From the NCBI GenBank assembly GCA_001828855.1, contig MHZT01000030.1, positions 144,320 through 208,319 on the forward strand: a stretch of 64,000 bases of DNA, read 5' to 3'. The notes beneath the pieces are model-generated. The model had not been told where the DNA came from. It saw nothing but the letters and a program-made list of their open reading frames with translations, and did no database searches. Origin of the DNA: Rhodobacterales bacterium RIFCSPHIGHO2_02_FULL_62_130 (GTDB lineage Bacteria; Pseudomonadota; Alphaproteobacteria; Rhodobacterales; Rhodobacteraceae). The position numbers and the translations under genes were made by a program. Shown one piece after another: positions 39,230 through 44,404 of the stretch (the first letter of the stretch is position 1; the number at the start of each line of letters is the position of its first letter).

Positions 39230-39883
39230 TCACGGCACGCGCAGGGCGGTGATCTTGGTCGCATCAACCTCGACCCCGCCTTCCAGAACCAAAGTTGTCC
39301 CGTTAGCCCCGCCGCGCGCTTCCAAGATTTGAGCGTAAGATTCCACCTCGCCAACGCCAAGCAATTCTTCTCCGCGATAGTTTTCCAGCGACAGCGTATA
39401 CATGCCGTTCGGCAATCGGTTGCCCAAAGCATCCGCCCCTAGCCATTCATAAGGCGCTGTAGACAAAGGCACATCTTCTCGTGCGACCAGCGCGCCACTG
39501 GAATCCTTGACCACCAGAACCGCCCGATCGGCCTGTGTGGATGGCGCATAGGTCAGCGTTACGGCGCTATCGCCCAAATAGACGGGCGCAGCCGACCGCG
39601 CCTCTTGTCCAACCCATCCTGCCAGCTGCGACATGCCCAGCACCCCGAACTGGCCATTCAGCCCCTCTAGCAACTGGTTGGTTTTCATCTGCTGCTCGAC
39701 GCCGGAAAAGGTGGCCAGTTGCACTGCATAATCCGCCGAATCGACGGGGTTCATCGGGTCTTGATTCTTCATTTGTGTGGTCAGCATCTTCAGAAACGTG
39801 GTGAAATCCGCGTTCAGGGCATTGGCCTTTGGGGTAGTAGCGGCTGTTGTTGTGCCGGGTGAAAGGGTTGCGGCGGTAACCAT
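39230..39883 (-). CDS. flgD: Flagellar hook capping protein FlgD
   Basis: A 217-residue hook-assembly scaffold. The N-terminal FlgD signature FTTFLKMLTTQMKNQDPMNPVDSADYAVQLATFS, described here in parts, places it firmly: LKMLTTQMKNQDP, then the Q..TFSGVEQQ region. The C-terminal half has the FLIG/Tudor-like beta domain (YEWLGADALGNRLPNGMYTL). Transcribed after fliK with 8 bases between, it looks intact. In this window the flagellar set is incomplete, because the neighbouring flgE and fliC are fused at a junction. Confidence 0.93.
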   Translation of the reverse strand: MVTAATLSPGTTTAATTPKANALNADFTTFLKMLTTQMKNQDPMNPVDSADYAVQLATFSGVEQQMKTNQLLEGLNGQFGVLGMSQLAGWVGQEARSAAPVYLGDSAVTLTYAPSTQADRAVLVVKDSSGALVAREDVPLSTAPYEWLGADALGNRLPNGMYTLSLENYRGEELLGVGEVESYAQILEARGGANGTTLVLEGGVEVDATKITALRVP

Positions 39884-39891
39884 GAAGTCTC

Positions 39892-41154
39892 CTACAAGCG
39901 AAGGTTAAGCCCATGCCCGCCCAAATCGGAACGGCTGGGCCAAGGCTGCGTGGGGGAAAAGACAGAGTCGGGCAAGGAAGGCGGGGTTTGTTCGTCCAAA
40001 AGCAGAGGGGTTTGACGGTTTTCACCGCCACCGCTTTGTTGCCATTGGCCAAAACTCAGCGTGGCGTCAGCAAACCCAGCCTGCCTCAAGTCAGCAAGAA
40101 GTTGCTCGACATGCCGTCGGATCAAATCCAGCGTATCGGGTCGTTCGACGGTCAAGATCACTTTCACCTGATCGCCATCGTGGCGAATCATGAAACGTAA
40201 ATGTCCGAGTTCTTGTGGATTCAAGATCACCTCTACAGGACCAGACTCCGGTCGGGTCGTATGTGCAATGATCATGGAAGCTACTGCTTCGGGCGAAGCA
40301 TGCAGAAGCGGTGGCGTTGTTGGCGGGGCAACCTGCGCCAAGTTTGCAGTGCTGGGCGGTATCAGTGTGATCTTGGTCTGGTTCGCTTCAGGCCGTACCG
40401 TCTCAGAAATCAGAAAATCAGCGTCAAAAGGCTCAGGCAGGTTTGAATCTGCCGATCCGGTGGTGTCATCTTTCTGAACCGAGAGGTCGTGGGCAATCTG
40501 GCTAGCCTGCTCCTCTGCGGCTTTGATCGTGGCGACCGTTTCCTGCTCTGTTATTGCACGGGCTAACGTCGCCAATTGCTGCAATGATGGCACTGCCTGC
40601 GAGGTGATCTTGGCGTCTGTCACGGCGACAGCGCTGGCCACAGCGCTTGGTTCTTTCTGTTCAGGCAAGAGTTGCAACATGTCTGTAAGGACATCGGCGC
40701 GAGGTGCCGCCGAAGACAGATTTTGATCTATCGCTGGGACCGCAGTGTCTGCTGTGGGCTGCATGGGCAGGTTTGGCAAGCTTGGCGTCGCGCCAATTTC
40801 CCTCACATCCAGTTCAGGGACGTCTGGCGCGGATGTGTCAATTGCGCTTGTTGTTATCGGCGAGAGTGCCGCGGACTGAGTCTGATCGGTTGATACAGGG
40901 GGCAAAAGATCAGCCGAACTCTCAGTTACAAAAGCATGCTGATCTGCCGTGGGTCTGTTGGCAGGGGGCATTGCCAGTATCATCACCTGCAGCAGATTAG
41001 GCATAATAGTATCAATTGCAGGCTCCGCTTTGGTCTGCGCCTCATCTTCCATCGTGAAGATGTCAGCAAATTCGACATCCGCGACGCCTTGCCCAATCTG
41101 TGGTGCAGCCTCGGTCTGAGAAAGGGGGCGCAGGGTCTGAAACTGGGGAATCAT
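39892..41154 (-). CDS. fliK: Flagellar hook-length control protein FliK
   Basis: A 420-residue protein with a long low-complexity N-terminal portion rich in Ser, Thr, Ala and Gln. The conserved C-terminal Flg_hook domain begins PVEVILNPQELGHLRFMIRHDG and continues VKVILTVERPDTLDLIRRHVEQL (both shown in part as description) around residues 305-355. FliK measures hook length and switches export specificity through FlhB. The N-terminal part looks less GC-rich than the flanking genes, as is common for FliK. It is divergent from flgJ across 108 bases containing a TTAC-N7-TTAC repeat. Confidence 0.85.
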   Translation of the reverse strand: MIPQFQTLRPLSQTEAAPQIGQGVADVEFADIFTMEDEAQTKAEPAIDTIMPNLLQVMILAMPPANRPTADQHAFVTESSADLLPPVSTDQTQSAALSPITTSAIDTSAPDVPELDVREIGATPSLPNLPMQPTADTAVPAIDQNLSSAAPRADVLTDMLQLLPEQKEPSAVASAVAVTDAKITSQAVPSLQQLATLARAITEQETVATIKAAEEQASQIAHDLSVQKDDTTGSADSNLPEPFDADFLISETVRPEANQTKITLIPPSTANLAQVAPPTTPPLLHASPEAVASMIIAHTTRPESGPVEVILNPQELGHLRFMIRHDGDQVKVILTVERPDTLDLIRRHVEQLLADLRQAGFADATLSFGQWQQSGGGENRQTPLLLDEQTPPSLPDSVFSPTQPWPSRSDLGGHGLNLRL

Positions 41155-41262: not shown

Positions 41263-41538
41263 ATGCAGATTTCACCAGAGTCAGTTCACGCGCCCGTTCC
41301 GCGCCTCAAGCCCAAGGATGATCCCTTGATGGTGCAGGCCCGTGCGCTGGAGGCGTCTTTCTTGTCCGAGATGCTGTCCTATGCCGGAATGGGGGCCGCC
41401 CAAGAGGCGTTTGGTGGCGGAATCGGGGAAGAGCAGTTTGCCTCATTCCTGCGACAAGAGCAGGCCGAAAGGATGGTTGCCAAGGGCGGCATCGGATTAG
41501 CTGAAAAGATTTTTCGCTCAATGACTGGCGGGGCTTGA
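41263..41538 (+). CDS. FlgJ-like rod-binding protein, N-terminal domain only
   Basis: A 91-residue protein matching the rod-binding domain of FlgJ: AxALEASFLSEML followed by GGIGEEQFASFLRQEQAERMVAKGGIGLAEKIF (in parts). The muramidase domain of gamma-proteobacterial FlgJ is absent, as is usual in Alphaproteobacteria. ATG 41263 with GGAG upstream was picked; the frame further upstream overlaps fliK. It caps rod assembly in the periplasm. It is followed, with one base between, by a FlgN-like gene. Confidence 0.85.
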   Translation: MQISPESVHAPVPRLKPKDDPLMVQARALEASFLSEMLSYAGMGAAQEAFGGGIGEEQFASFLRQEQAERMVAKGGIGLAEKIFRSMTGGA

Positions 41539-41539
41539 A

Positions 41540-41869
41540 ATGGGCAGTGATCACCTGCTGGATAGCTTGCTTGATCAAGCTTTTGCTGCGGTTATGGCAG
41601 CCGATTATGCCGCCTTGGAGGCGATTGACGCGCAAATCGAAAAGGCTCTCGCACAGTTTGGGCCACCGAAGGATCAGGCGCAGCTTTTGCATCTGCAACG
41701 CAAGGCAGAACGCAATGCGATTTGTCTTCAGGCGGCGGGTCGTGGAATCCGGTCTGCCCTGCGACGCCTGCAAGAGGTGCGGCGTGCAGCTACCGGACTG
41801 GCCACATATGACGGCAAAGGGCGGCGGGTTGAGACCGGCGGACATGGCCGCCTAAGTGCAAGATTTTAG
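41540..41869 (+). CDS. Small helical protein, possibly FlgN-like flagellar chaperone
   Basis: A 109-residue predicted helical protein with no membrane segment. The closing part, QRKAERNAICLQAAGRGIR followed by RLQEVRRAATGLATYDGKGRR, resembles the C-terminal end of FlgN, the export chaperone for hook-filament junction proteins. It is shorter than typical FlgN (about 140). It follows flgJ after one base, so co-transcription is certain if flgJ is expressed. The FlgN identity is a guess based on pattern and context. Confidence 0.5.
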   Translation: MGSDHLLDSLLDQAFAAVMAADYAALEAIDAQIEKALAQFGPPKDQAQLLHLQRKAERNAICLQAAGRGIRSALRRLQEVRRAATGLATYDGKGRRVETGGHGRLSARF

Positions 41870-42068
41870 TCAAATGCGTGACAATCGACTCAGTGGCGTT
41901 AGCACTCGCTTAGAACTTCCAGCGGCTTGATGGACAGGCATCCCCGATGGGGTGGCGCGTCGGACCATGTGGACCGGCGCACCGGACAGAAAGACCGTTC
42001 TGCCGTCGTGTCTCACGATGGTGCAACCCGCCGCGCGCAAAGCGCCGGCTGACCGCGAAGGAAACGAT

Positions 42069-42233
42069 ATGTCGTCGATCATGACCAACACCAGCGCAAT
42101 GGTCGCGCTGCAGACCATGAAAAGCATCAACGCCAACATGAACAAAACCCAGTCCGAGATTTCGACGGGGAAATCGGTGGCGAATGCCAAGGACAATTCC
42201 ACGGTCTGGATTACCTTCGCGTTTGACGAATAG
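42069..42233 (+). pseudogene. fliC: Flagellin gene fragment: first 47 codons, then foreign sequence
   Basis: ATG 42069, preceded by AAGGAAAC, opens a flagellin N-terminus (MSSIMTNTSAMVALQT, then INANMNKTQSEISTGKSV and AKDNSTVW). Family resemblance stops after W47 at base 42209. After it the frame reads the complement of flgE and stops at 42233, giving only 54 residues. Flagellins of this group are usually 270 or more residues, so over 80% of the gene is missing. The cut falls inside the conserved D0/D1 helix. It is either a deletion or rearrangement in the genome or a false join in the assembly. Confidence 0.85.
42201..42209. other. fliC/flgE recombination junction with 9-bp microhomology
   Basis: ACGGTCTGG belongs both to fliC codons 45-47 (forward) and to flgE codons for Q-T and part of V (reverse). 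Left of it only fliC is recognisable, right of it only flgE. Such a shared word is what a microhomology-mediated deletion leaves. Confidence 0.75.
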
Positions 42234-43520
42234 GCACGCTGGGTCTGGATCAGTTGGGTCAATTCTGCGGCAACATCCGTCGCCGATTCCTCACGCGAGA
42301 AGCCGACAATGCTGCCCGTGGGTCCATCACTGGCGTCCCAGAGGTAGAATGGTCCCGAGGCCGGCGAGATCTGATAGGTCTGGTTGTTGAGCGCGATCAA
42401 TCCGTTGGGGTTCGGCACATCGATCACCGGAATCTGGTAGATCCGGCGGGTAAAGCCTTGGTCGTAAATTGCCGAGAGGAAGCCTTTTTCATCCACCTCA
42501 ACCGAAGTCAGACTGGCCACAGGAGAGCCGTTCTTGCTGATCGCCACCGGAGCAAAAGTGGCTGAAAGCTGGGTCATGCCGTTCGGCTCACCCGGTTTGC
42601 CGATATCAAGGGCGATGTTCCCGCCGCCCAGAGTCAGCGAAAGCACGCCATCCGACGGGTTGTAGGCCCCCCCCGATACGACCGTGACACTATCCAAAGT
42701 CCCGCCTGCGATCTGGTTCGGATTGAAGGTCAGTGCATATTCTCCCACCACCGCCCCAGCCGAGGCAGTGTCTGTAATCTGCATTGTCCAAGTATTCGAC
42801 GTGCCGGATGCAGGCACTGTTGGCGTGAAGGTGAAATTCAGCGATTCGGACGTGCCAAGGTTGCCGAAATATTCCACCGTCAGGTGAAAAGGGTCGCCCG
42901 TTGCGCCCGCCTGTCCTGCCGTTGCTGGCAGGTTCACACCCAAGTGCATTTCCGATGTGGGATTGCCGATATATTGGTTCGCGTTGATCCGGACAGGCTG
43001 AAGCGCTGCCATCGTGTCGCGCGGATAGGTGTCAAGCGTGCCATCCGGGTTTGCGGGCCATCCCATCAGAACATGCCCTGTTTCCGTTCGCAAAATGCCG
43101 GTTTCATCCGGCCGGAAAGACCCCGTTGTCGCCAGCGCAATCGGATAAGAATTGTCCATACCGTTGATCGCCCCGATCGTTGTCACCGGGATGAAGCCGC
43201 GCCCGTCAATTGCCAGATCGGTGGGGTTTGAGGTGGCAATCAGCGGTCCGCGGTCATCGATCAGCCGCATGTTGGAAACCCGCACGCCGCCCGCCGAATA
43301 GCTGGCGCGGGCATTGCCGTGGGTCACCACCGAGTGGAAATCCGACTGCGCCCGTTTATAGCCAAAGGTGGAAGAGTTGGCGATGTTGTCCGAGATTGTC
43401 GCAAGGCGATTGGCATTGGCATTAAGTCCTGCCACCCCCGCGTTCAGCGAAGAAGAGATCGTCATCGGTTGCACCTTTCTGGAGCTTCGATCTTGATGCC
43501 CCGAACGTGCGACAACCGCG

Positions 43521-43552: not shown

Positions 43553-44404
43553 TTATCGGTCGCGGCGCAGCAAGATGATCTCCAGCCGATTGTTCCGCAC
43601 GGCAGCCGGGTCGGCAGTTGCGGGCTTGCGGTTCGCGTGGCCGCTGATCCGGGCGATGCGTTCGGTTGGCACACCTGCTGCTTCCAGCAAGGCGCGCATC
43701 GACTGCGCGCGGGCTGCTGACAAATCCCAGCTTGGGTTGTCTTTTACCGTGATCGGATAGGTCCGTACATGCCCGTCCACCGCAAGCTGGTTTTCTGTCA
43801 GCATCAGGATTTCTGCCAGAAGTGCTGCAATTTTTCGTGTTGCCCCTGCAGGTTCCGCCGAGTTTTCACCGAACAGCGGCACGTCTGGCAAATCGAATAC
43901 CTCGATGACCAGCCCTTCGTCGGTGACGCGGGTGACCACATGGCGCATCAATCGCTCCATCGTCATGCTTTCACCGCTGCGCCCCGCCAAGGCCTGTTCC
44001 ACGGCCGCGATCGTTTGGGCCTCGGCAATGCCGTGACCCTCTACGGTGCCACTGTCGCCGCGCGCCTGTGACTCTGCGGTAGGGTGAACATTACTTGCGC
44101 CTGTGCCGTTCTTGGTCAGCGTTTGCTCTGAAAATATCGATTCGCCGCCAAAAGATCCGTTGCCCCCACCGGAGATCCGGTTCACCGGAATCGTCGGATT
44201 GAAGTAGTCCGCAATGCCCTTGCGTTGTTTTTCCGTTGTCGCGTTCAGCAGCCACATCAGCATGAAGAAGGCCATCATGGCCGTCACAAAGTCAGCATAG
44301 GCCACTTTCCACGCACCACCGTGATGACCGCCGCTCTGGATTATTTTCTTCCGCTTGATGATGACTGGCGCGGCATTTGATTGCCCAGCCATCCACACAC
44401 CCAT
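43553..44404 (-). CDS. motB: Flagellar stator protein MotB
   Basis: A 283-residue stator subunit. The N-terminal single span has the proton-carrying aspartate (AYADFVTAMMAFFMLMWLL, D38 if counted from ATG 44404; D34 from the internal ATG 44392). A linker follows, then a C-terminal OmpA-like peptidoglycan-binding domain (ENQLAVDGHVRTYPI, SAARAQSMRALLEAAGV, ISGHANRKP). MotA is not in the window. The gene looks intact and lies directly upstream of the damaged flgE on the same strand. The start is uncertain between the two ATGs. Confidence 0.9.
   Translation of the reverse strand: MGVWMAGQSNAAPVIIKRKKIIQSGGHHGGAWKVAYADFVTAMMAFFMLMWLLNATTEKQRKGIADYFNPTIPVNRISGGGNGSFGGESIFSEQTLTKNGTGASNVHPTAESQARGDSGTVEGHGIAEAQTIAAVEQALAGRSGESMTMERLMRHVVTRVTDEGLVIEVFDLPDVPLFGENSAEPAGATRKIAALLAEILMLTENQLAVDGHVRTYPITVKDNPSWDLSAARAQSMRALLEAAGVPTERIARISGHANRKPATADPAAVRNNRLEIILLRRDR

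Follow-up and report, generated by a model that had tools for sequence, protein, structure and literature searches.

A recurrent fliC/flgE join at the site of an excised fla1 flagellar segment in Rhodobacterales

In a stretch of 64,000 nucleotides from the genome of Rhodobacterales bacterium RIFCSPHIGHO2_02_FULL_62_130 (contig MHZT01000030.1, positions 144,320 to 208,319; hereafter the window), the beginning of a flagellin gene (fliC) and the beginning of a hook protein gene (flgE) face each other and meet, the remainder of both genes being absent. Which event produced such a locus, and is it peculiar to this strain? The initial annotation, made from the window alone, favoured a single microhomology-mediated deletion, with an inversion or a chimeric assembly as alternatives. 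Here we compared the locus, carried by a draft assembly of 53 contigs (G000), with those of its congeners, of the family and of the GTDB. The genes belong to fla1, a flagellar cluster presented in the excerpted text of Tomasch et al. 2025 (PMC12363192) as ancestral, vertically inherited and independently lost in several Rhodobacterales clades.

Two truncated flagellar genes and the position of their join

The first 43-44 codons of fliC meet codon 422 of flgE tail to tail at 42198-42201, between other genes of fla1: motB on one side and, on the other, the gene at the flgN place, flgJ, fliK and flgD, followed by ubiB (Table 1). Both gene starts given by the initial annotation (FliC at 42069 on the plus strand, FlgE at 43465 on the minus strand) were confirmed. 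Pfam recovered only profile positions 1-44 of Flagellin_N in the fliC piece, and the flagellar rod/hook N-terminus together with Flg_bbr_C up to profile position 37 of 46 in the flgE piece. The truncations reported earlier are thus real, but intact relatives shift the break points, fliC ending at 42198/42199 (codon 44) and flgE extending to V422 at 42200. A Pfam search of the product of 41540..41869 gave no FlgN match. The antisense tail of the open frame of the flgE piece, which measures 15-129 aa in 54 other loci, is probably a by-product. An adhesin-like large repetitive protein with secretion-system-like partners (named from translations only) lies between motB and a GntR gene in G004 and G005 (L047:2353-10981; L056), and is absent from the window.

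Table 1. Features of the fla1 remnant in the window, in window coordinates (PMC12363192 is cited from an excerpt)
Feature	Coordinates	Strand	Basis
flgD	39230..39883	-	FlgD and FlgD_ig domains (Pfam)
fliK	39892..41154	-	Flg_hook domain (Pfam)
flgJ-like rod-binding protein	41263..41538	+	Rod-binding domain (Pfam), frame checked
Small gene at the flgN place, adjoining fliC	41540..41869	+	Name from position and gene order in PMC12363192
Open frame of flgE', continuing antisense across fliC', 534 aa	41870..43474	-	Open frame
fliC', start of the fla1 flagellin gene, 43 full codons plus part of codon 44	42069..42199	+	Flagellin_N 1-44; comparison with 24 intact genes
Open frame of fliC', continuing into antisense flgE, 54 aa	42069..42233	+	Frame check
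Join, overlap 1-2 bases	42198..42201	.	Position identical in G005, G012 and 54 GTDB contigs
flgE', hook protein residues 1-422	42200..43465	-	Pfam and alignments
motB of fla1, intact	43553..44404	-	MotB_plug and OmpA domains (Pfam)

The crossing point was located base by base, numbering from the G of GAY AAY (base 1 = 42192). At base 7, G is found in 23 of the 54 junction loci; Asp423 of FlgE being invariant in 46 intact genes, flgE has T at this base, and the G must therefore come from fliC. At base 10, 53 of the 54 loci carry A, as in flgE Val422, and intact fliC carries G in 23 of 24 genes; the sole G at this base is that of G005, which fits either parent because its relatives carry Ala422. 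Bases 15 and 18 likewise follow flgE. These assignments place the join at bases 7-10 (42198-42201), where the two genes overlap by one or two bases. ACGGTCTGG (42201-42209), a word formerly regarded as native to both genes, is flgE sequence: it lies wholly on the flgE side of the join and is absent from intact fliC (0/24), where the codon concerned reads GCN in 23 genes and TCC in one, and never ACN. Both sites have in common a loose right half, CNRCNGTYTGG, touching the join, and their left halves look unrelated. The wobble bases at the join differ between carriers.

Excision of about 25 kb from the fla1 cluster

The search for relatives covered 61 genomes, 44 of them with a match. In three congeners, G004, G001 and G007, the fliC and flgE sites lie on one contig, with order and orientation kept, at 25,254 bp, 25,233 bp and 25,245 bp from each other, respectively, and in the orientation of a deletion. 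An inversion, one of the alternatives of the initial annotation, finds no support, as the relative strand and order of the pieces are unchanged in these three genomes. The segment of G004 between the two sites contains flgK, flgL, flgI, fliP, motA, flhA, fliR, flhB, fliL, flgH, flgA, flgG, flgF, fliQ, fliE and the rest of fliC (gene names read from translations; Pfam was run on six ORFs). The absence from the window of flgK, flgL, flgI and the flagellin partner genes, noted at the outset, was confirmed, and in G004 these genes are located between the two sites (names again from translations).

An 18.7-kb DNA query from G004 revealed the fla1 cluster in 10 of the 15 genus members. In G000, G005 and G012 it retrieved the fliC remnant only, plus, in G000, two short matches to another flagellar set; it gave no match in G010 and G013. 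The search of the rest of the genome for the lost parts, called for by the initial annotation, showed the fla1 segment to be missing from the whole G000 assembly. Furthermore, FlhA of the fla1 type is missing in all 14 junction genomes searched, three of them single-contig, and present in 3/3 intact controls; three junction genomes encode a distant FlhA of 39-41% identity. The deletion is real, since three single-contig genomes share the join. The window is thus the scar of an excision of ~25 kb, comprising most of the fla1 cluster, between fliC codon 44 and flgE V422/D423.

The strain carries a second, different flagellar cluster (C35:98679-140701; L043-L045), with its own flagellin, MotA, MotB, FlgE-, FlgF-, FlgG- and FlgK-type proteins and FlhA, several of them named from translations; this FlhA shares 39% identity with that of the fla1 type. 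Given this second set, motility may persist in the window strain. The genus Cypionkella is described as non-motile in the excerpt of PMC7179689.

Two loci of another kind were also encountered. In G003, fla1 is split on one contig (C27; L251, L252), with the fliC side at 91-100 kb and the flgE side at 208-227 kb, in changed orientation. The draft genome G006 (C152 and C172; L020, L069) contains two closely similar flgE copies, one of them partial.

Distribution, recurrence and age of the join

When the genus was searched by plain DNA similarity with window positions 42069-42520 as query, the fused locus matched along the full 452 bases in G005 (81%) and G012 (79%, a draft genome, 82% complete), hence in 3 of 15 members with G000. 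A degenerate pattern of the join gave 10 exact matches among 394 family genomes. At up to two mismatches, 61 genomes matched (the control pattern, read backwards, matched in 7 of 394), and 16 of them were inspected, namely the window genome and 15 whose exact or near matches were fetched. Among these 15, 11 show the join locus and 4 are chance matches, so that the 12 confirmed carriers among 394 family genomes, window genome included, come from those 16. The 11 fetched loci have the order flgD - fliK - flgJ - fliC'|flgE' - motB, with ubiB past flgD in 10. In GTDB r220 the pattern was found in 54 contigs, from 33 isolates and 21 MAGs or uncultured genomes, and on re-reading all of these contigs showed a flagellin start that faces FlgE. 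They belong to Rhodobacteraceae genera (in the wide sense) or to MAGs, one labelled only Alphaproteobacteria. Sulfitobacter mediterraneus DSM 12244 is among the carriers; the excerpt of PMC13386836 reports plasmid-borne flagella in S. mediterraneus.

Both counts, 54 and 12, were obtained with a pattern demanding exactly the fliC/flgE join, and the bias-free searches are that of the genus and a survey of flgE. The latter, based on a FlgE search independent of the join, found flgE in 314 of the 394 family genomes. Among the matches listed, only the junction genomes G000, G192, G320 and G179 have a FlgE alignment short of residue 433. In 80 further genomes, taken from the remaining matches with known junction genomes and weak matches (E about 1e-60 to 1e-80) left out, FlgE reaches residue 433 or 434 in 79. 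Consequently, no flgE 3' truncation elsewhere than at the join was seen among the matches listed, nor in these 80 genomes bar one that ends at a contig end. The survey finds shorter truncations and is unreliable for the join itself, because the junction tail can align nearly to the end of FlgE (residue 431 of 434 in G320).

The carriers do not form one lineage. Within the genus, a single clade of G000, G005 and G012 was rejected by AU tests on infB (p-AU 2.9e-5) and flgE (7e-4), and a clade of G000 and G005 was rejected on motB (AU p 1.3e-11). G005 is sister to the intact G001 in the flgE and motB trees, and the two genomes share 98% identity in the fliC piece. Over a FlgE tree of 111 rows (102 without same-genome duplicates, 53 with the join), built by a quick method and with intact rows mostly limited to one per genus, 17 state changes are needed, 11 of them forced by well-supported branches; five Limimaricola species with the join cluster in this tree. 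The main groups of intact genus members in the fla1 flhA tree agree with infB. Among the closest four genomes, the FlhA tree pairs G004 with G001 (89/90), and infB pairs G004 with G007. The same join therefore recurs, at the same place, in several non-sister lineages, and several lineages seem to have made the cut independently.

The remnants are little decayed. The flgE piece is open beside the join in 44 of the 46 loci that cover the entire gene, and broken in L175 (G012) and L185. The flgE of G306 appears frame-shifted; in G012 (L175) and G306 (L135), the apparent frame shift of the truncated gene falls at about codons 275-290. The fliC piece keeps its ATG and has no stop in 54 of 54 loci, with pN/pS values of 0.05-0.27 in nine junction groups, versus 0.12 in intact genus members and 0.30 over all 24 intact genes. 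Between G005 and G001, the dN/dS of flgE is 0.061, showing no relaxation in G005. The flgE of Limimaricola is relaxed, with a pN/pS of 0.39 over five species, all five open. Some scars thus look old, namely those of Limimaricola with its relaxed flgE and those with a frame-shifted flgE in G012, G306 and L185. Most excision events would nevertheless appear to be young, because the cut genes are usually unbroken and mostly keep a sense-frame constraint.

A candidate sequence-directed excision and its rivals

The crossing position is fixed to within 1-2 bases in lineages that are no clade. From this we infer, as the probable explanation, a recurrent site-specific excision of fla1 between fixed points of fliC and flgE by a conserved, sequence-directed process, since homology of the two sites fails to account for the repetition, and so does a common allele.

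Regarding homology, the two sites agree at 9 of 12 bases in three intact genomes. When about 196 million pairs lying within 6-8 kb of the sites were compared, 123,953 to 163,570 repeat pairs per genome equalled or surpassed this match. Microhomology cannot account for the recurrence, because at least 123,953 other pairs per intact genome fit equally. The join moreover lies to the left of ACGGTCTGG and not within a repeat common to both parents, and the break points do not differ between events.

In a sequence-directed process, the cut would be set by the sequence, and flgE would contribute what lies right of the join. Two schemes could give this outcome. An enzyme might recognise the CNRCNGTYTGG half in both genes and join them at its left edge, or, at a break hot spot, the flgE strand might switch directionally to fliC as its template. 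An ordinary recombinase site is awkward, because the sites share only the loose CNRCNGTYTGG half and third codon positions vary. No recombinase domain was found by Pfam in six ORFs tested from the G004 segment. The reciprocal join of an excised circle, searched with at most one mismatch, matched once among the 394 genomes, and that match lies within an unrelated ABC-type gene; loss of the circle would leave the same picture. Neither an intact copy beside a junction nor a mixed population was seen. A viral carrier was discarded as a candidate, with no exact match in IMG/VR.

Codon use near the site is alike in junction and intact flgE, apart from a handful of codons that differ between lineages too. 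Differences between the two groups occur at many flgE codons and look like lineage effects, because the strongest ones lie far from the join. Two further features of flgE were observed. A strong hairpin for its G+C is predicted at codons 5-25 (z about -3.8, 30 intact genes), and the windows closest to the join show unusually little structure. In addition, windows starting at codons 405-412 have synonymous diversities among the lowest of the gene (0.71-0.74 versus a mean of 0.90, 46 intact genes), a signal too mild to use.

More tentatively, the excision could be a one-way genetic switch conserved in Rhodobacterales that removes most of fla1, motile lineages continually shedding permanently sessile cells; we regard this extension as possible, though doubtful. 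If true, the genomes with the join would be snapshots of sessile cells, hence their mostly unbroken cut genes.

Among the rival explanations, a single ancient deletion allele could have spread by transformation or by gene transfer agents, short join-bearing fragments deleting the segment through homologous recombination. Gene transfer agents with short fragments are common in Rhodobacterales, and such a spread would account for an identical join in scattered lineages. It is however unlikely, as carriers lack the resemblance around the join that exchange should leave: at equal divergence, two junction genomes resemble each other beside the join no more than two intact genomes, or one of each kind, do, whether in the synonymous identity of the last 10 flgE codons (47 intact and 49 junction genes) or in the last fliC bases (24 intact and 55 junction genes). 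Moreover, G005 goes with G001, its intact sister, to the left of the join as well as to the right, and the wobble bases at the join vary among carriers. Exchanged tracts of less than ~30 bases would escape these tests, because the region is very conserved.

A non-enzymatic hot spot is also improbable. There, after recurrent breakage or stalling at one site, the template would switch directionally to its partner, the similarity between sites being kept by the protein code. Such a switch suits the bases from 9 or 10 rightwards, which all come from flgE, as extension of a 3' flgE strand on fliC would give, and the common half CNRCNGTYTGG touching the join. Against it, no hairpin was found at either site, 123,953 or more pairs per genome match equally well, and a fixed break would itself need explaining.

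The reading of the initial annotation, a single chance microhomology deletion in the window strain, is very improbable. Its deletion half stands, given the geometry of the relatives, with the pieces 25.2 kb apart and the segment gone from the window genome; its single microhomology event does not, as the identical join recurs in lineages forming no clade and lies outside the 9-bp word, which intact fliC lacks. Hardly plausible, too, is one old inherited deletion followed by regain of fla1 in other lineages. The clustering of several junction genomes, such as the five Limimaricola species, and the departure of the FlhA tree from infB inside the closest clade would suit it. Against these stand the rejection of one clade within the genus by the AU tests, the agreement of the main FlhA groups of the genus with infB, the mostly unbroken remnants and the vertical inheritance of fla1 reported in the excerpt of PMC12363192. 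Finally, an assembly artefact or chimera, which the draft state of the window genome (53 contigs) might suggest, can practically be dismissed, the join being identical in three genomes that each consist of a single contig and in 54 contigs that come from different projects and include both isolates and MAGs.

A recurrent, sequence-directed excision of fla1 would resemble known systems only in part. The nifD element and skin are programmed excisions that restore a gene by means of their own recombinase. As in the present case, they remove a large segment precisely, from one fixed position to another, but here the cut breaks two genes and none of the six ORFs tested showed a recombinase domain. 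Flagellar phase variation by the Hin invertase, a reversible inversion with its own recombinase and defined repeats, is likewise a site-specific DNA change altering flagella; the present case differs in being a deletion, without matching repeats and with no reverse product seen. Microhomology-mediated deletion joins distant coding sequences with a 1-2 base overlap, as here, but its break points should scatter between events, and here they do not.

No description of a shared fliC/flgE scar was found in open-access titles or the starts of abstracts. The closest parallel is the sporadic fla1 loss of PMC12363192, which affects the same cluster in the same bacterial order; its excerpted text mentions neither remnants nor a common break point, whereas one join is found here. 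Recurrent gene loss is usually held to be imprecise, in contrast to the precise, recurring join of fla1, and even in a weaker form of our proposal this join provides a fixed marker for when and how often motility was lost.
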